A DNA stretch of 64,000 nt, taken from positions 744,001 to 808,000 of the forward strand of contig NZ_CP029684.2 of assembly GCF_004102045.2 (NCBI RefSeq). Direction: 5' to 3'. The notes under the pieces were generated by a model. The model made no database searches, was not told the DNA's origin, and worked only from the letters and a program-made list of their open reading frames with translations. Shown one piece after another: positions 1,397-32,106 of this stretch; position 1 is the stretch's first letter; each line of letters begins with the position of its first letter. The DNA is from Oenococcus sicerae (GTDB lineage: Bacteria; Bacillota; Bacilli; Lactobacillales; Lactobacillaceae). The translations under genes were made by a program, and so were the position numbers.

Positions 1397-2541
1397 TGAA
1401 ACTCAGAGCGAAAGAAATAAGACATTTGACTTTTTTTGGAGCAGTTACGGCAATCGTACTGCTTTTTTTGGACTGGTCAGTCTTTATTTTTTTTGCTGCT
1501 TTATTATCCAATTCTTTTAGAATTAGTCGTGGCAAATTTTGTTCTTCTGTCCGCGTCATGTTTGATGGCCAGAATTTTACACCGAAAAATGCGCAGTGGT
1601 GGGGATTTGCGATTATTCTGATTTTAGGAATTATTTTATGGATATTTTTGTTTTTGCGTGAATATCAACAACTTCAATTAAAACGTCTGTCTGATGAAAT
1701 CACAAAAATAAACGAGACAAACGATAATGATCGTATCAAAATGTCTTCAATCGATCCGATGGTGACTAATTTGGTTTCGCAAATCAACCAAATGACGCAA
1801 GCCAAGCAGGCTATTTTAAATACAGAGCGGGAAAATGAAAAAAAACAAAAAGAACTTGTCACCAATGTCTCTCATGATTTAAGAACGCCGCTGACGTCGA
1901 TTATTGGTTATTTAGGGCTGATTGAATCGAACCCCGATATTCCCGCTGATCAGATGCGAAAACATGCGTCAACTGCTTATTCCAAGGCACAACAGCTTGT
2001 CGCGATGGTGGAAGATCTTTTTTCTTATTCCCAAACACAAACCAATGGTGAGAATCTTCATTTTCAACCAATGGAAATATCTGAGTTCTTTGATCAGCTG
2101 ATCGTTCAATTTAGCCTTGATGCAAACAAGCATCACATTACCATGTCTAGTTTGACCAATCCAGATCAGATCCAAATTGTAGCTGATCCGGAAAAACTAG
2201 CACGTTTGTTTATGAATTTAATCAATAATGCATTTAAATACGGTAAGACGATGACCTTTATTAAATTAACCGCAGCTAAAAGAGATGATAAAGTCGAAAT
2301 CAAGGTTCAAAATGATGGCGAGCAGATTCCAAAAGCGAGTCTTTTGAAATTATTTGATCGTTTTTATCGAGTGGACCAATCAGGTAATAAAGAAATTTCC
2401 GGCACAGGTTTGGGCTTGGCGATCTCGCAAGGCATTGTTCAGCAGCATCATGGTTCAATTCATGCCGAATCAAACAGTCAACTGACTAGTTTTGTCATCG
2501 AACTGCCAGTTGACGCATCGTTGGGGCTAGCACACGATTAA
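1396..2541 (+). CDS. VanS-like sensor histidine kinase
   Basis: A 381-residue membrane sensor kinase starting with GTG that overlaps the regulator stop by one base. Two hydrophobic segments (about 10-40 and 72-92) flank a short extracytoplasmic loop. A HisKA domain carries the phospho-acceptor His160 in the NVSHDLRTPLTS motif, followed by a HATPase_c domain with N-box (LMNLINNAFKYG), F-box (LFDRFYRVD) and G-box (GTGLGLAIS). All catalytic motifs look intact. The extracellular loop is short, as in intramembrane-sensing or VanS-type kinases. Its stop codon region overlaps the probable ATT start of the carboxypeptidase gene that follows. Confidence 0.9.
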   Translation: MKLRAKEIRHLTFFGAVTAIVLLFLDWSVFIFFAALLSNSFRISRGKFCSSVRVMFDGQNFTPKNAQWWGFAIILILGIILWIFLFLREYQQLQLKRLSDEITKINETNDNDRIKMSSIDPMVTNLVSQINQMTQAKQAILNTERENEKKQKELVTNVSHDLRTPLTSIIGYLGLIESNPDIPADQMRKHASTAYSKAQQLVAMVEDLFSYSQTQTNGENLHFQPMEISEFFDQLIVQFSLDANKHHITMSSLTNPDQIQIVADPEKLARLFMNLINNAFKYGKTMTFIKLTAAKRDDKVEIKVQNDGEQIPKASLLKLFDRFYRVDQSGNKEISGTGLGLAISQGIVQQHHGSIHAESNSQLTSFVIELPVDASLGLAHD

Positions 2542-3871
2542 AAAACAGCATCAAACAAAATATATTGGTAGAAAAATTTCAATAGGCGTTTTTTTAGGCC
2601 TTTTAATCATTTCTTTTTTGATTGGCTTTTTTATCAATGATGAAGTCAAACAAGAAAAGCTGTCAACTGTTAATGGAGAACCCATCCAGCTTAAAGAAAC
2701 GGCTAATGCTGCTTTGGTCGTTAATTTTAAAACGGGCCAAATCGTTGCCGAACAAAATCCAAAGCAAAAACTGACGATTGCTTCAACAAGCAAGCTGCTG
2801 ACCACCTATTTAGTTTTAAAAGCGATTCGCAGTGGAAAACTTTCTTGGCAGCAAAGAATCAAATCGAATAACGAAATCTATCGGCTCTCCCAAAATACTG
2901 AATTAATGAATGTGACCTTGTATCCAAATGATTCGTATACAGTTAAACAGTTATTAGAATCGACTTTATTGATTTCGAGCAATGCGACTGGTGTTTTGCT
3001 GGGGGATGCTATTTCTGGCAATCAAACTAATTTTGCCAAACTCATGAATAAGACCGCTGCCTCTTTTGGAATTCCAAAATCGGAATTTAAGTTTTACAAT
3101 GCGGTCGGCATCTCTAATTCGTATCTTGGTAGTGGCAAAATCAGGGATATATCAGACAAGGCAGAGAATCTTGCTTCAGTTAAAGCACTATCAACGATAG
3201 CTTATCGCTTATTCACTGACTACCCTGAGGTGATGAAAATTATGCAAGAAAACCAACTCAATTTTCAGTATCCGAACAGCAGCCAGCGTTTTCAATCGAT
3301 AGGAACCTTGTCTAAATTCAATGCAGAAGTCGCTGATACGAAGATTAAATTTATTGCAGCCAAGTCCGGGGCCTCACGTTCTGCTGGTTCGGTTATGTTG
3401 GGATTGACCGATAAATTAGCAAATGGTCAGCAGTATTTATCAGTTGTTATGAATGGATCTGACTATGAAACACCTTTACCAACTTGGCAGCTTGTAGCAA
3501 ATATGGTTAAAGAAGTCATGAACCAAGGAACTAACCACGTGATTAAAAAAGGTCATGCCATCACTGGCTCTAAAAATCTTTATTTACAGAAAACACAGTT
3601 GAATCAAATAGCCTTAAAAATCGCTTCGACATTTTCTTTTTGGACAAATGGTGAGGGACCTCAACGTATATCTGCACAAGCCATTCCTTATGATCGAAAA
3701 TCTGCTGCAGTCAAAAGGGGCCAGATTTTTACTAGCAAAATCAATAACACAAAGCATTTTGATTATTTGTATGGGCTGGATCAGTTTCACAAAATAAAAT
3801 TGCAGGCGACAAAGTCCACAAAAATATCACATAATTTATTTATCAGGTACTGGCGTTGGCTGACACATTGA
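2537..3871 (+). CDS. dacA: D-alanyl-D-alanine carboxypeptidase with probable ATT start
   Basis: A penicillin-binding, DacA/PBP5-like enzyme that trims the terminal D-Ala of peptidoglycan stem peptides outside the membrane. It has the catalytic STSK (Ser codon at 2783), an SxN triad as SSNATG and a KSGAS box (usual KTG). The first ordinary start codon is a TTG at 2618, but that cuts through a membrane anchor. The frame stays open back to a TAG at 2528 and reads IKKQHQTKYIGRK followed by about 20 hydrophobic residues. ATT at 2537 overlaps the kinase TAA (ATTAA), matching the 1-base overlaps earlier in the operon, so I set the start there; no ATG, GTG or TTG exists in this extension. A signal anchor is expected for the family. 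Start codon uncertain, function well supported. Confidence 0.85.
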   Translation: MKKQHQTKYIGRKISIGVFLGLLIISFLIGFFINDEVKQEKLSTVNGEPIQLKETANAALVVNFKTGQIVAEQNPKQKLTIASTSKLLTTYLVLKAIRSGKLSWQQRIKSNNEIYRLSQNTELMNVTLYPNDSYTVKQLLESTLLISSNATGVLLGDAISGNQTNFAKLMNKTAASFGIPKSEFKFYNAVGISNSYLGSGKIRDISDKAENLASVKALSTIAYRLFTDYPEVMKIMQENQLNFQYPNSSQRFQSIGTLSKFNAEVADTKIKFIAAKSGASRSAGSVMLGLTDKLANGQQYLSVVMNGSDYETPLPTWQLVANMVKEVMNQGTNHVIKKGHAITGSKNLYLQKTQLNQIALKIASTFSFWTNGEGPQRISAQAIPYDRKSAAVKRGQIFTSKINNTKHFDYLYGLDQFHKIKLQATKSTKISHNLFIRYWRWLTH

Positions 3872-26224: not shown

Positions 26225-27232
26225 ATGAGCAAGAAAATAACGATTAAAGAAGTTGCCCACAAGGTAGGCTTATCGATCACTGCTGTTAGCCAGATTTTGA
26301 ACGGTAAAGGCGCGCGTTTTTCCGAAGGCAATATTAAAAAGGTGTTTGCTGCCCGTGATGAATTGCATTATGTGCCAAGTCTTGCAGCTAGAAATCTGAG
26401 CAATAAAACAGATGTGACGATTGGTGTTTTGGTACCAGCCATTTCGAATCCTTTTTTTAGCGAATTTTTACAATCAATCGAAAACTATTCTGATCCAAAA
26501 ACACACGTGATGATGATTGGATTGGATGGCGACAGGGGCCAACTTTATTCTGCGATCGAAGGTTTGCTGTCTCAAGGAATTGACGGTCTCATTGTCGCTG
26601 TTGCAGTTGATGGTTATCCAGAAGTTAATGCCTTATTGAAAGAAAATTTAATTCCATATATCGTTTTAGACCAAAATAATACCAAGGATTCTGATTTTAT
26701 TGCGGCGGATGATTTCCATGGCGGACAGCTGGCTGCCCAGTATTTGTGTTCTTTGGGACACGAAAAAATTAGTATCGTCGCGGCTAATTCGGAAGCAACT
26801 ACTTATAATTTGACGGTTCGTTTGAACGGTTTTTTAGAAACTTGCCGCGATTCAGGTATAAAAAAAGAAAACATTCAAATTATTAAAACCCAGTTCACAA
26901 AACATGGTGGTCAGAAAACAGCAGCTGCCATTATTGCATTTAGACCAACAGCAATTTTTACATTAAGCGATGAACTTGCTATTGGTGTACTAGGCGGACT
27001 CAATGACTATGGTTTCAAAGTCCCGGATGATTTTTCCTTAATTGGATATGACGATACCGATTACGCTGAATTTATGAATCCAAAGCTCACAACTATTAGG
27101 CAGCCAATTCCGCTATTAGCCAAGTACGCGTTAGAAATGCTAAAGAACCGCATGATAAATCCAAAGATTAAAGAACAAATTAGAACGGTCGATGTGGAAT
27201 TGATTATCCGTGATTCATGCAAAAAACGGTAA
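26225..27232 (+). CDS. rbsR: LacI-family regulator, probable ribose repressor
   Basis: A 335-residue LacI/GalR regulator. The N-terminal helix-turn-helix and hinge read TIKEVAHKVGLSITAVSQILNG and YVPSLAARNL. The effector domain is periplasmic-binding-like (IGVLVPAISNPFFSEFL, DGLIVAVAV, SLIGYDDTDYAEFMNPKLTTI). It lies directly before rbsKDACB, and near-identical AAGCGCTT operators stand before both, so it is probably RbsR responding to ribose or a phosphate derivative. The HTH motif has ITAVSQILN where many have VSTVSRVLN, still within the family. Confidence 0.88.
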   Translation: MSKKITIKEVAHKVGLSITAVSQILNGKGARFSEGNIKKVFAARDELHYVPSLAARNLSNKTDVTIGVLVPAISNPFFSEFLQSIENYSDPKTHVMMIGLDGDRGQLYSAIEGLLSQGIDGLIVAVAVDGYPEVNALLKENLIPYIVLDQNNTKDSDFIAADDFHGGQLAAQYLCSLGHEKISIVAANSEATTYNLTVRLNGFLETCRDSGIKKENIQIIKTQFTKHGGQKTAAAIIAFRPTAIFTLSDELAIGVLGGLNDYGFKVPDDFSLIGYDDTDYAEFMNPKLTTIRQPIPLLAKYALEMLKNRMINPKIKEQIRTVDVELIIRDSCKKR

Positions 27233-27245
27233 GATTTGATTTTTT

Positions 27246-27276
27246 TGTAAGCGCTTCCTCATAAATTTGATATAAT
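27246..27276 (+). promoter_or_regulatory. Operator and promoter of the rbs operon
   Basis: TGTAAGCGCTTCCTCA (27246-27261) carries the cre/RbsR core. An extended TGA-TATAAT -10 (27268-27276) follows. The operator covers the -35 position, so binding would block RNA polymerase. Confidence 0.7.
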
Positions 27277-27351
27277 TATCATTGTTGGTAAATCGTTTTA
27301 CTGATAAAAAACAAACAAGTTGGTTGTATTTTTACTTGGTGGGAGGGAATT

Positions 27352-28278
27352 ATCAAAAAACAAGGGAAGAAAATCGTTGTCCTCGGATCTTTAAATGTTG
27401 ATACGATTCAGCATTTGGATAAATTACCTAAGCAAGGGGAAACAATTCACATTCAAGATTTAACCAGCGCACCTGGCGGCAAGGGTGCTAATCAGGCTGT
27501 GGCTGCAGCTCGACAAGGTGCACAAGTAAGTTTTATCGGTGCAGTTGGCGATGATGCTAATGGTCGGTTTATGACACAGACCTTAGTTGACAATGGCATT
27601 GACGTATCGCATATCGTGACTAAAAATGTCCCGACTGGTGCCGCTTATATCATGCTGGAGGCTGATGGCAATAACACGATTTTAGTTTATGGTGGTGCCA
27701 ATATGCAGGTCAGTTCCGAAGATGTTTTGGCAGCTTCAGAACTAATTGCCAGGGCCGACTTGATTATTGCTCAATTTGAAACACCTATTGATGCGACAAT
27801 GACAGCATTTGAAATTGCTAAGCAACATCATGTGATGACTATTTTAAATCCAGCACCGGCACAAAAAATTGGACCTGAATTATTAGCTCTGTCTGATTTT
27901 GTGACGCCTAATGAGACCGAAGCAGCAGCACTAATCGGTCGCAGTGTTGAATTTAATCAAGCGTCTTTGAATCAGGCTGCTGCAGCTTTTGAAAAACTTG
28001 GTGTGAAAAATACATTGATCACACTAGGGGAACATGGCTCGTTTTATAAACTTGCTGATCAATCAGGTATGATTCCAAGCTTCAAAGTTAAAGCGATTGA
28101 TACGACAGCTGCCGGGGACACTTATATCGGCTCATTTGCTGCCAATCTGAATGGCGATTTTAGTAATTTAGTCCAGGCATTGACTTGGGCCAGCCGCAGT
28201 TCATCATTAGCGGTTCAAAAGGCCGGCGCATTGCCTTCGATTCCTAATTTTGAGGAAGTTCAGGCGGCGATGCAATGA
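27352..28278 (+). CDS. rbsK: Ribokinase with a non-standard start codon
   Basis: A PfkB-family kinase phosphorylating ribose to ribose-5-phosphate. It shows GSLNVDT at the N-terminus, [33 protein letters not shown] and the anion-hole motif [13 protein letters not shown]. The first usual start codon is TTG 27415, which would remove the first beta-strand and GSLNVD substrate site. The frame stays open upstream and encodes [18 protein letters not shown] strong GGGAGGG (27341-27347) sits five bases before ATC 27352, so ATC (or ATT 27349) is the likely start, or a lost ATG. The end overlaps rbsD by four bases. Confidence 0.87.
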
Positions 28279-28673
28279 AAAAAGGTATCTTATTAAACTC
28301 GCAAATATCAGCCGTGATTGCAGATATGGGGCATTTCGATACTTTGGGGATCGGTGATGCTGGGATGCCAGTTCCCAATACAACAAAAAAAATAGATTTA
28401 GCCGTTACGAAAAACTTGCCGAGATTTAATGATGTTGTCGAAACTGTTTTGCAAGAATTGCAAGTCCAACGAGCTTTCATCGCTAGTGAAATGAAGACAG
28501 CAAATCCTGAGGGATTAAAAAAATTACTAGCTACACTGGGCAGCCAGGTCACTATCATTTATATTCCTCATGAGCAAATGAAGGCTGATTTGCATCAAGC
28601 CCGAGCTTTTGTTCGAACTGGTGAGGAACATCCATATGCCAACGTGATTTTGGAATCGGGAGTTGTCTTCTAG
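28275..28673 (+). CDS. rbsD: D-ribose pyranase
   Basis: A 132-residue enzyme interconverting the pyranose and furanose forms of ribose so that RbsK can act. It has [32 protein letters not shown] with the conserved His and Asp, and the C-terminal [19 protein letters not shown]. Its ATG overlaps the rbsK TGA. Confidence 0.96.
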
Positions 28674-28685
28674 AAAAGAGGAAAT

Positions 28686-30164
28686 ATGAAAATTGAGCTT
28701 AAAAATATTTGGAAGGCTTTTGGCCAGAACTCAGTTTTAAAAGGTGTTAATTTAACAGTCCGACCCGGAGAAGTTCATGCGCTGGTCGGAGAAAATGGCG
28801 CTGGCAAATCTACTTTAATGAACATACTGACGGGCCTATTAAAGGCAGAGAAGGGTGAAATTTTAGTCAATGATAAGGCGACCCTTTATTCAGATGCGAT
28901 GGCTGCCGAACAAGCTGGAATTTCTTTTATTCATCAAGAAATGAATAATTATGGTCAAATGACTGTGTTGCAAAATATGTTTATCAATCGTGAGATCAAA
29001 GGAAAATTTGGTTTACTTGATGAAAACGAAATGGCAAAAATTGCCAAAAGATATCTAGATGAAATGGGTTCAGATGCTGAGCTCGGAGTTGATATCGGCG
29101 ATTTGTCGGTTGGTAAACAGCAAGTTATTGAAATTGCCAAATCTCTTATGACGGATGCAAAAGTGATTATCATGGATGAACCGACAGCCGCTTTGACTCA
29201 ATCAGAAATCAGTGCTTTGTTTGACAATATCCGTAGACTAAAAGCCAAAGGTGTCTCTTTTATCTATATTTCACATCGTATGGAAGAAATTTTTCAAATT
29301 GCTGATGCAGTCACAGTCATGCGTGACGGTGTGACAGTCTCTGCTTATCAAACAGCTGCAACAAATGTTGGACAATTAGTTAAGGATATGGTTGGTCGTG
29401 ATATTGGTGATTTTTATCCATCACGCCATCCAAAATTCGGTCCAGTAGCCTTAAAGGTGGCACATGCTCACGGTGGACACTTCTCTGATGTGAGTTTCGA
29501 AGTTCGAGAAGGTGAGATTTTAGGTTTTTCCGGCTTAATGGGTGCCGGTCGAACCGAAACGATGCGCGCGATTTTCGGAGTTGACAAGCTTGAGTCTGGC
29601 GATGTTTATGTGCATGGCAAGAAAATTAGAATAACAAGTCCAGCCGAGGCGATCAAAAATAACATTGGTTTTGTTACAGAGGATCGTAAAGACGAAGGTC
29701 TAATTTTGGATTTTGATCTCAAAGAAAATATTTTGCTGCCGACTGTGGATGGTTTTAATAAAAAAGGTTTGATTGACGAAACTGCTATCGATGAATTTTC
29801 GCAAGCATTGATAAAACGTTTAACGGTTAAGTCAATGAGCGAGCATGATCTAGCTTCAAGTTTGTCAGGCGGAAATCAACAAAAATTGGTCTTAGCTAAA
29901 TGGGTTGGTGCGGGCAGTAACGTCTTGATTTTAGATGAACCGACTCGTGGAGTCGACGTCGGTGCTAAAAGAGAAATTTACGATTTAATGAATGAACTGA
30001 CCGATCGAGACGTCGCTATCATTATGATTTCATCGGATCTGCCTGAAGTGATTGCAATGTCAGATCGAATTGCAGTGATGTATGAAGGCCGTTTAACTGG
30101 TGAAATTAATGGTAAAACTGCGACGCAAGAACAAGTAATGGCACTTGCTACTGGAGGGAAATAA
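28686..30164 (+). CDS. rbsA: Ribose ABC transporter, dual ATPase
   Basis: A 492-residue tandem ATPase. Domain 1 has Walker A GENGAGKST, signature LSVGKQQ and Walker B IIMDEPTAAL. Domain 2 has the degenerate Walker A GLMGAGRTE expected for sugar importers, then LSGGNQQK and LILDEPTRGVDVG. The ribosome site is AGAGG. It energises ribose uptake with RbsC and RbsB. Confidence 0.95.
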   Translation: MKIELKNIWKAFGQNSVLKGVNLTVRPGEVHALVGENGAGKSTLMNILTGLLKAEKGEILVNDKATLYSDAMAAEQAGISFIHQEMNNYGQMTVLQNMFINREIKGKFGLLDENEMAKIAKRYLDEMGSDAELGVDIGDLSVGKQQVIEIAKSLMTDAKVIIMDEPTAALTQSEISALFDNIRRLKAKGVSFIYISHRMEEIFQIADAVTVMRDGVTVSAYQTAATNVGQLVKDMVGRDIGDFYPSRHPKFGPVALKVAHAHGGHFSDVSFEVREGEILGFSGLMGAGRTETMRAIFGVDKLESGDVYVHGKKIRITSPAEAIKNNIGFVTEDRKDEGLILDFDLKENILLPTVDGFNKKGLIDETAIDEFSQALIKRLTVKSMSEHDLASSLSGGNQQKLVLAKWVGAGSNVLILDEPTRGVDVGAKREIYDLMNELTDRDVAIIMISSDLPEVIAMSDRIAVMYEGRLTGEINGKTATQEQVMALATGGK

Positions 30165-30166
30165 AA

Positions 30167-31126
30167 ATGGAAACGACATCAAAAACTTCTGTTAAGTCTT
30201 TCATATCAAAATTAGGGCCTTGGGGTGCTTTGATCGTGTTGGTTTTGATCGTAACGATCTTGAACCCAGGTTTTTTGAACATTAACAATATTTTTAATCT
30301 GCTACGCCAAGTCTCGATTAATGCAATTATTGCCTTTGCAATGACTTTCGTCATTTTGACTGGTGGCATTGATTTATCAGTTGGATCAATTCTAGCTTTT
30401 TCGACTGCAATTACTGCACAGCTGATCGTAGGCGGCGTACCAACCATTATTGCTGTGATAGCTGGCATCTTATTAGGCGGTGTTTCTGGTGCTATTAACG
30501 GTTTAATCATTACGAAGGGTGGAGCGGCACCCTTCATTGTGACTTTAGCGACAATGACCATTTTCCGCGGTGCAACTTATGTGTTCACGAATGGATCGCC
30601 TATTACCGGCGCTAAAATCACAAATAATTATTCTTTTCAGGTTCTTGGCCGCGGATATGTTCTAGGCATTCCGGTTCCAGTCTTGATCATGTTTGCTGCC
30701 TTTGTTGTTTTGTATATACTGCTTCATCGTATGAGCTTTGGTCGTAAAACATATGCCATTGGCGGTAATGCGAAAGCAGCTTTTGTTTCAGGGATTAAGA
30801 CTGACAAGGTTTTAATTTGGATTTATACAATTTCTGGCGCTGCCGCTGCTTTGGCAGGAATGATCCTAACTTCGCGTTTATCATCTGCTCAGCCGGATGC
30901 CGGCACCGGATATGAGATGGATGCGATCGCTTCAGTTGTTTTAGGCGGCACTAGCCTAGCTGGTGGTAAAGGCCGAATCGTTGGTACCTTTGTTGGTGCT
31001 TTGATCATTGGTGTTTTAAACAACGGCATGAATTTACTTGGTATTTCAAGTTTTTATCAGCAAATTGTTAAAGGCATTGTCATCTTAATTGCTGTTTTGC
31101 TTGACCGCAAGAAGACCAAGGCTTAA
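30167..31126 (+). CDS. rbsC: Ribose ABC transporter permease
   Basis: A 319-residue permease with about ten helices. Family motifs are ILTGGIDLSVGSILAFS, TKGGAAPFIVTLATMTIFRG and AIASVVLGGTSLAGGKGRIVGTFVGALIIGVLNNGMNL. The GGAGGG ribosome site lies inside the end of rbsA. Confidence 0.95.
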   Translation: METTSKTSVKSFISKLGPWGALIVLVLIVTILNPGFLNINNIFNLLRQVSINAIIAFAMTFVILTGGIDLSVGSILAFSTAITAQLIVGGVPTIIAVIAGILLGGVSGAINGLIITKGGAAPFIVTLATMTIFRGATYVFTNGSPITGAKITNNYSFQVLGRGYVLGIPVPVLIMFAAFVVLYILLHRMSFGRKTYAIGGNAKAAFVSGIKTDKVLIWIYTISGAAAALAGMILTSRLSSAQPDAGTGYEMDAIASVVLGGTSLAGGKGRIVGTFVGALIIGVLNNGMNLLGISSFYQQIVKGIVILIAVLLDRKKTKA

Positions 31127-31137
31127 AAGGGGGAATT

Positions 31138-32106
31138 ATGTTAAAGAAAAAAAGTTCAATTATTTCACTTGGATTAGTTATTGTCATCTTGCTGTCTTTA
31201 TTTATATCTGGTAAACCCTTGCTGACCTTGCGCAATCCATGGGTAGCGGCCGATCAAAATAAAAAAATCAATGCAAAAGATATAAAAATCGGTGTTTCAC
31301 TTTCAACGATGAATAATCCCTTCTTTATCTCGGTTGCTGATGGCATCAAGGTTGAAGCCAAAAATCAAGGTGTTAAAGGATTAATTATTGATGATGGTAA
31401 AAATGACACTTCTAAACAATCGAACGATATCGAAGATTTGATTCAACAACAAGTAGATGTTTTAATTATTAATCCAGTTGATTCTGATGCTGTAACGCCT
31501 GAGGTGAAAGAGGCTAATCAGGCAGGAATTCCTGTGATCACGATCGATCGTTCTTCTACTGGCGGCAAAGTCTTGTCGCTTGTGTCATCTGACTCGGTAC
31601 TAGCTGGGAAAATGGCAGCTGATTTTATGTTTAAAGCAGTTGGACAAAACGCAAAAGTTGCTGAATTGCAGGGGACGCCTGGTGCTTCGGCTGCCCGTGA
31701 TCGCGGTAAAGGTTTCGAAGAAGCTTCTAAAGGGAAACTGAATATCGTGGCTAAGCAGACCGCCAATTTTGACCGTTCTCAAGGATTATCAGTGGCGGAA
31801 AACATTATTCAAGGACATACTGATTTGAAGGGCATATTTGCTCAGAATGATGAAATGGCTTTGGGGACTGCACAAGCTGTCAATGGCAATAATATTGTGA
31901 TTATTGGTATTGATGGTGAGGCTGATGGCTTGGCTGCTGTAAAATCCGGTAAAATGAGTGCTACCGTGGCTCAGCACCCTGAGGAAATGGGGAAACTGGC
32001 GGTTCAAACCGTCATTAAACACTTCAAAGGCAAAAAAGTGGCAAAGTGGACTAAGTCGCCAGTTGCGTTAGTGGTGAATGATAAATATAAGAATTTAATT
32101 AAGTAG
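31138..32106 (+). CDS. rbsB: Ribose ABC transporter substrate-binding protein, no lipobox
   Basis: A 322-residue periplasmic-binding protein. It has IGVSLSTMNNPFFISVADGIK, IINPVDSDAVTPEVKEANQAGIPVITIDR, GTPGASAARDRGKGFEEA and AQNDEMALGTAQAV. The N-terminus (KKK then about 20 hydrophobic residues) contains no Cys and no clear cleavage site. It may therefore stay anchored by an uncleaved helix instead of being a lipoprotein, which is unusual for a Gram-positive binding protein. A strong AAGGGGG ribosome site is present. Confidence 0.94.
   Translation: MLKKKSSIISLGLVIVILLSLFISGKPLLTLRNPWVAADQNKKINAKDIKIGVSLSTMNNPFFISVADGIKVEAKNQGVKGLIIDDGKNDTSKQSNDIEDLIQQQVDVLIINPVDSDAVTPEVKEANQAGIPVITIDRSSTGGKVLSLVSSDSVLAGKMAADFMFKAVGQNAKVAELQGTPGASAARDRGKGFEEASKGKLNIVAKQTANFDRSQGLSVAENIIQGHTDLKGIFAQNDEMALGTAQAVNGNNIVIIGIDGEADGLAAVKSGKMSATVAQHPEEMGKLAVQTVIKHFKGKKVAKWTKSPVALVVNDKYKNLIK

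Follow-up and report, generated by a model that had tools for sequence, protein, structure and literature searches.

A conserved AUC codon as the probable start of the ribokinase gene rbsK in Oenococcus

RESULTS

The rbs locus of Oenococcus sicerae

The window, by which we mean the whole stretch of 64,000 nucleotides analyzed here (positions 744001-808000 of the 1.66 Mb single-contig genome of Oenococcus sicerae), carries a set of genes for ribose utilization (Table 1). The rbsK reading frame, which is open from 27292 to a stop codon ending at 28278, lies between rbsR and rbsD. Its product exceeded the cut-off of TIGR02152 (299.65 bits) and, at 293.6 bits, fell below that of NF008353 (341 bits), making TIGR02152 the fitting model. 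The O. sicerae genome yielded no second full ribokinase, the other match being weak (E 9.5e-4) and partial. The ATGA overlap of the rbsK stop codon with the rbsD start is common to the window and the Oenococcus genomes G001 and G002 and is absent in G004.

Table 1. Features of the rbs locus, in window coordinates
Feature	Position	Strand	Evidence
rbsR, ribose repressor	26225..27232	+	NF047341, 399 bits (cut-off 382)
cre-like site, perfect match to CcpA operator consensus, TGTAAGCGCTTCCT	27246..27259	+	Sole match in window; 0.11 expected in shuffles
TATAAT, possible -10 element	27271..27276	+	By eye; consensus scan reported no promoter there
Shine-Dalgarno GGGAGGG (core GGAGG 27342-27346)	27341..27347	+	Duplex -11.8 kcal/mol; GGAGG before ATC in 4 other Oenococcus genomes
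ATC, inferred rbsK start codon	27352..27354	+	ATC in 5/5 Oenococcus orthologs
rbsK, ribokinase, 308 residues from ATC	27352..28278	+	TIGR02152, 339 bits; dN 0.16-0.17, dS 2.2-4.5
TTG, first standard in-frame start, rejected as start	27415..27417	+	No Shine-Dalgarno sequence; loses first strand and GSLNVD motif
rbsD, D-ribose pyranase	28275..28673	+	NF008761, 175.7 bits (cut-off 93); ATG overlaps rbsK stop (ATGA)
Three ORFs read as rbsA, rbsC, rbsB (ribose ABC transporter)	28686..32106	+	Names inferred from order and sequence

The cre-like site between rbsR and rbsK was scored against what we take to be the CcpA operator consensus. A promoter scan returned two weak matches, about the number obtained from shuffled sequence, and neither was positioned to serve rbsK. 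The leader RNA (27282-27400) folded no better than shuffles (z -1.0), and therefore no structural switch is claimed for rbsK.

The start of rbsK

The first ATG, GTG, or TTG in the rbsK frame from 27292 onward is TTG 27415; the in-frame codons upstream of it include CTG 27301, ATA 27304, ATT 27328, ATT 27349, and ATC 27352. Comparison with two relatives shows the residue to be unchanged in each at 21 of the 25 codons preceding TTG 27415; at 8 or 9 of these the codon itself differs, and this retention of residues through synonymous change indicates that the stretch is coding. Ribokinase homology extends over the same codons, and two solved ribokinases, one of which is presumably the E. coli enzyme, align to the product from residue 6 or 7 onward. 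The frame, the homology, and the codon comparison thus confirm an earlier sequence-only reading of this DNA, which had placed the conserved N-terminus of rbsK upstream of TTG 27415 with no standard start in frame. A near-cognate codon with a central U stands at that N-terminus instead: both homology and the Shine-Dalgarno (SD) sequence, which is very strong, point to ATC 27352. The family score does not itself locate the start, since a product shortened to TTG 27415 still passes TIGR02152 (318.8 versus 299.65 bits).

The GGGAGGG element ends four bases before ATC 27352, and its GGAGG core ends 5 nt before it; the sequence-only reading was right about the strength of the element and one base off in its spacing. 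Its pairing energy with the anti-SD was equalled by 0.08% of 18,278 22-mers sampled from both strands of the window and was reached by 8% of 507 genes at guessed starts, for which the median was -7.2 kcal/mol. The corresponding duplexes in the Oenococcus relatives, at a spacing of 8 nt, range from -9.3 to -11.2 kcal/mol; the value of -9.3 in G004 and O. oeni is unexceptional, 29% of the 507 genes being equally strong.

Conservation within and outside the genus

Orthologs of rbsK were found in five of seven Oenococcus genomes searched, namely, those of O. sicerae, G004, G001, O. kitaharae CRBO2176 (G002), and O. oeni DSM 20252 (G003); G005 and G006, both incomplete, contained only more distant relatives. 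The window gene is closest to the Oenococcus genes. G004 and O. oeni also carry a second ribokinase-like gene, 49% identical, with an in-frame GTG near its start.

Alignment of the junction, which the sequence-only reading had proposed as a check across strains, was made here across the genus and bore out the candidate start: the aligned codon is ATC in all five orthologs and ATG, GTG, or TTG in none, and GGAGG precedes it in every case, at 5 nt in the window and 8 nt in the other four. The earlier choice between ATC and ATT is thereby narrowed to ATC, because the codon before it is not conserved (ATT, ATC, GTA, GTA, and GTC in the window, G004, G001, G002, and G003, respectively) and ATT 27349 would sit just 2 nt after GGAGG. 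That preceding codon encodes Ile or Val throughout and could itself be translated, while the difference of three bases in the SD-ATC spacer between the window and its relatives fits untranslated sequence. In three species pairs, dN was 0.16-0.17 and dS 2.2-4.5; with synonymous sites saturated and protein change slow, the gene must be functional and under purifying selection. A strain-specific mutation or an assembly error at ATC 27352, the latter raised at the outset as grounds for dismissing the case, was rejected because the same ATC occurs in all five genomes in a gene under selection.

How much weight the conserved codon bears was gauged against ordinary ATC isoleucine codons at which Ile is also present in G004 and G002; 138 of 1,189 (11.6%) are ATC in all three. 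Taken alone, the conserved ATC of rbsK is thus a moderately improbable finding and no more, expected for about one ordinary Ile codon in nine, although each of the seven other ATC codons of the window gene is changed in at least one relative. What gives the case its weight is that the ATC, the SD, the spacer, and the boundary of protein conservation occur together. Independent lineages number about four, since G001 is closely related to G002 and the O. oeni type strain has a frameshifted copy. That frameshift lies near an A run (L005, about 3260-3280), downstream of the start.

In other genera, 95 of 97 genomes gave some rbsK match, and the loci of 26 of the best were read. All 26, from other Lactobacillaceae genera, carry an ATG in frame where residue 4 or 5 aligns, and several have additional standard starts upstream of that ATG. 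Since that ATG lies three or four codons downstream of the ATC position, the Oenococcus N-terminus is slightly longer and its start is different.

Other near-cognate starts

The genome-wide scan suggested earlier for conserved N-termini lying upstream of all standard starts was carried out over 790 kb (47%) of the O. sicerae genome, against 776 kb of G004 and 728 kb of G002. It was run within Oenococcus, detects solely genes with conserved N-termini, and took in 518 nonoverlapping ORFs with a match, 369 of them matched in both relatives. Fifteen ORFs were flagged as having conserved, synonymously changed codons ahead of the first standard start, of which three (3/518 genes) were judged by eye to have a conserved near-cognate start: infC (ATA), rbsK (ATC), and a 58-residue ORF, A656 (ATT). 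The infC gene was located in six of the seven Oenococcus genomes searched (loci L116-L121) and starts with ATA in every one of the six. The 58-residue ORF (frame 844650-844844 of the genome, plus strand; L284) has no ATG, GTG, or TTG anywhere in frame in O. sicerae; its ATT is conserved in the five of seven genomes with a match, behind an AAGG-type SD at 8 nt. It matched nothing in Pfam over the cut-off and was probably missed by annotation. Three such genes in about half a genome are no clear excess, given that an S. aureus study reports four noncanonical starts (PMC13009471).

The other 12 flagged ORFs were dropped by eye. Seven (A160, B1030, A1453, A848, B1211, A1479, and A98) have a standard start behind an SD-like sequence; B1028 has an ATG and a short upstream match; A1462 is a probable ABC-transporter remnant; the match of B58 is followed by its own ATG; the relatives of B864 have upstream stop codons; and B510 has a conserved leader ahead of the ATG of a HIT-family gene. 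Near 114369, this HIT-like gene, named by eye, lacks an SD and has TATAAT six bases upstream of its ATG; its mRNA is possibly leaderless. An ABC-transporter-like fragment at 719888-720583 (minus strand) has no early start and is a probable remnant. A search of shorter ORFs tried 4,709, found matches for 218, and retained 20, most of which fall within rRNA or tRNA regions or share sequence with longer ORFs. At least five (706541, 130475, 820837, 885641, and 315371) do not overlap any ORF of 90 residues or longer, and further conserved nonstandard starts may exist among them.

dacA and mismatch repair

The sequence-only reading had coupled rbsK with dacA, encoding a D-Ala-D-Ala carboxypeptidase, as two genes with nonstandard starts and possibly a shared cause. 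The dacA ORF (window 2531-3871) has ACG at 2534, and in a MAFFT alignment that column is ATG in G004 and GTG in G002. The alignment is uncertain because the N-terminus is poorly conserved and G002 also has an ATG eight codons later. None of the candidate starts (ACG 2534, ATT 2537, and TTG 2618) has a strong SD (-4.7, -4.7, and -2.0, respectively). A lineage-specific ATG-to-ACG transition is the likely history of dacA as read from the alignment; for rbsK, ATG to ATC would be a transversion. Close relatives retaining a standard start at the same place, the sign of recent start loss, are probably present for dacA and are absent for rbsK. With ATC conserved in five of five genomes and the dacA ACG set against ATG in G004, the two starts probably differ in age and route, and the suggested shared cause is not supported.

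The only MutS-type protein found in O. sicerae is MutS2 (L125:502-2898); MutS_V gave one match in each of the seven Oenococcus genomes, that of O. sicerae being the only one classified. O. oeni is described as hypermutable (PMC6498615). The suggested loss of mismatch repair fits these observations but does not explain an old, conserved codon.

The initiation machinery of the genus

The initiator tRNA of O. sicerae (74556-74631, minus strand; L128:629-704) has the anticodon stem UCAGG/CCUGA, in which A29:U41 replaces G29:C41, so that one of the three hallmark G:C pairs is lost. The search gave one match per genome, with none in 11 of the 61 genomes searched. The tRNA sequence is the same in the five near-complete genomes of the genus; G006 shares the stem, and G005 yielded no match. 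A29:U41 is thus present in all six Oenococcus genomes in which the tRNA was found, while all 28 loci read from other genera, drawn from 48 such genomes with a match, have GGG/CCC.

For comparison of the 16S rRNA, 18 loci from other Lactobacillaceae were tried and 16 were used together with E. coli; at 34 positions that these share, five of five Oenococcus genomes differ (L243, L244). The changes near the P and A sites include C967A, G976A, and the pairs A784G/U798C, C1409A/G1491U, and C1411U/G1489A, while G1338, A1339, and A790 are intact, as is the anti-SD at the 3' end in O. sicerae. Position 967 presumably adjoins the P-site anticodon, and we take the paired changes to fall in h24 and h44. 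Oenococcus 16S rRNA is fast evolving, and these changes may therefore belong to general drift. There was no sign of a weakened IF3, its RF-GR and GR-M segments agreeing with the two solved IF3 chains aligned.

Published work states that G1338 and A1339 make A-minor contacts with tRNA pairs 29:41 and 30:40, that a change at 30:40 lowers discrimination against CUG, mainly through weaker GUG and UUG complexes (PMC11497404), and that G29-C41 of the initiator tRNA joins a base triple with A37 (PMC4611024). Read against this background, the Oenococcus tRNA and 16S changes are best described as correlates of the near-cognate starts. A literature search on the initiator tRNA gave nothing on Oenococcus among the matches listed, subscription papers being mostly outside its coverage.

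DISCUSSION

Judged by comparative sequence evidence, codon 27352 is a real, conserved AUC at the start of a metabolic gene. We think it quite probable that rbsK is translated from this AUC, behind a strong SD, and that it is an old, maintained, low-output start. The fMet initiator tRNA would initiate at AUC, with GGGAGGG positioning initiation and compensating for the mismatched third base of the codon. AUC is among the codons, with AUU and AUA, against which IF3 discriminates, as stated in a review (PMC4611024), and low output is therefore expected: rbsK would be expressed at a small fraction of the AUG level, in a manner sensitive to the IF3 level and growth state. The codon goes back to the ancestor that the five genomes share and has been kept since, most likely because it holds ribokinase low compared with the operon's transporter genes. 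RbsD would also be held low where it is coupled to rbsK.

Other ways of placing the start were judged less likely. Initiation one codon earlier, at ATT 27349, would likewise use a known rare start and adjoins the ATC, but the GGAGG merely 2 nt upstream in the window, together with a position that is not conserved and that offers GTA or GTC, poorer candidates than ATC, in relatives, makes it improbable. Very improbable is initiation still further upstream, at species-specific codons, with ATC as an internal isoleucine: G004 and O. oeni do have an in-frame TTG overlapping the SD, and an aliphatic codon precedes ATC in all five genomes, but no SD-like sequence was seen by eye upstream of that TTG, the corresponding stretch of the window, G001, and G002 offers no standard start, such a start would make GGAGG coding, and the spacer length varies by three bases. 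An automatic annotation might choose TTG 27415, a standard codon giving a protein 21 residues shorter that still passes the family model; this we find scarcely credible, as TTG 27415 has no SD (-0.1 kcal/mol), the codons upstream are conserved through synonymous change, and the strand and motif lost are present in the two solved ribokinases.

A different account accepts the missing start and attributes it to decay of rbsK under a high mutation rate without mismatch repair. The MutS2-type protein found alone, the described hypermutability of O. oeni (PMC6498615), the frameshifted rbsK of its type strain, and the probable lineage-specific change in dacA are in keeping with decay, but an ATC common to five genomes at saturated synonymous divergence and strong purifying selection make it highly unlikely.

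Relaxed initiation, also raised by the sequence-only reading, was not shown in its general form, with 3 of 518 genes affected, but the changes in the initiator tRNA and the 16S P site keep a version of it alive. Under a genus-wide shift, ribosomes that tolerate near-cognate starts better would have allowed the rbsK AUC, the AUU of the small ORF, and the survival of dacA with an ACG start; we regard such a shift as rather unlikely.

AUC, AUU, and AUA starts are out of reach for gene callers restricted to ATG, GTG, and TTG, and genes that use them are therefore shortened or missed; the rbsK case illustrates that comparison of a few species suffices to find nonstandard starts. An AUC start retained throughout a genus by the gene for a metabolic enzyme offers a clean natural test of translation-level tuning. 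Because the initiator tRNA and the 16S P site are altered in that genus too, whether start codon fidelity can itself evolve in a living lineage becomes a question for direct study. The rbsK start was absent from the titles listed in searches on Oenococcus start codons and AUC starts, in which subscription papers were mostly outside coverage.

The product matches the bacterial ribokinase family (TIGR02152, PF00294) over its full length from ATC on, and its start resembles others in unrelated genes. The pcnB gene of E. coli, which is unrelated to rbsK, has a similar low-output near-cognate start, AUU. The AUU or AUA of infC is likewise a near-cognate start with a central U, behind an SD and conserved across species, and this textbook case was recovered, as a conserved ATA, by the same scan as rbsK. 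IF3, however, autoregulates through its start codon, whereas ribokinase plays no role in initiation; control of rbsK, if there is any, would therefore be one-way. The rbsK start would join the infC and ccpN kind of attenuated start, without amounting to proof of generally relaxed initiation. In S. aureus, a study using ribosome profiling and reporters describes four noncanonical starts, with conserved AUU and AUA starts behind strong SDs giving about 10-30% of AUG (PMC13009471). While the starts of ccpN (AUA) and cvfC1 (AUU) were seen directly in that study and that of rbsK, an AUC, is deduced from sequence, they are, like rbsK, metabolic or small-protein genes with conserved noncanonical starts and strong, extended SDs (PMC13009471).
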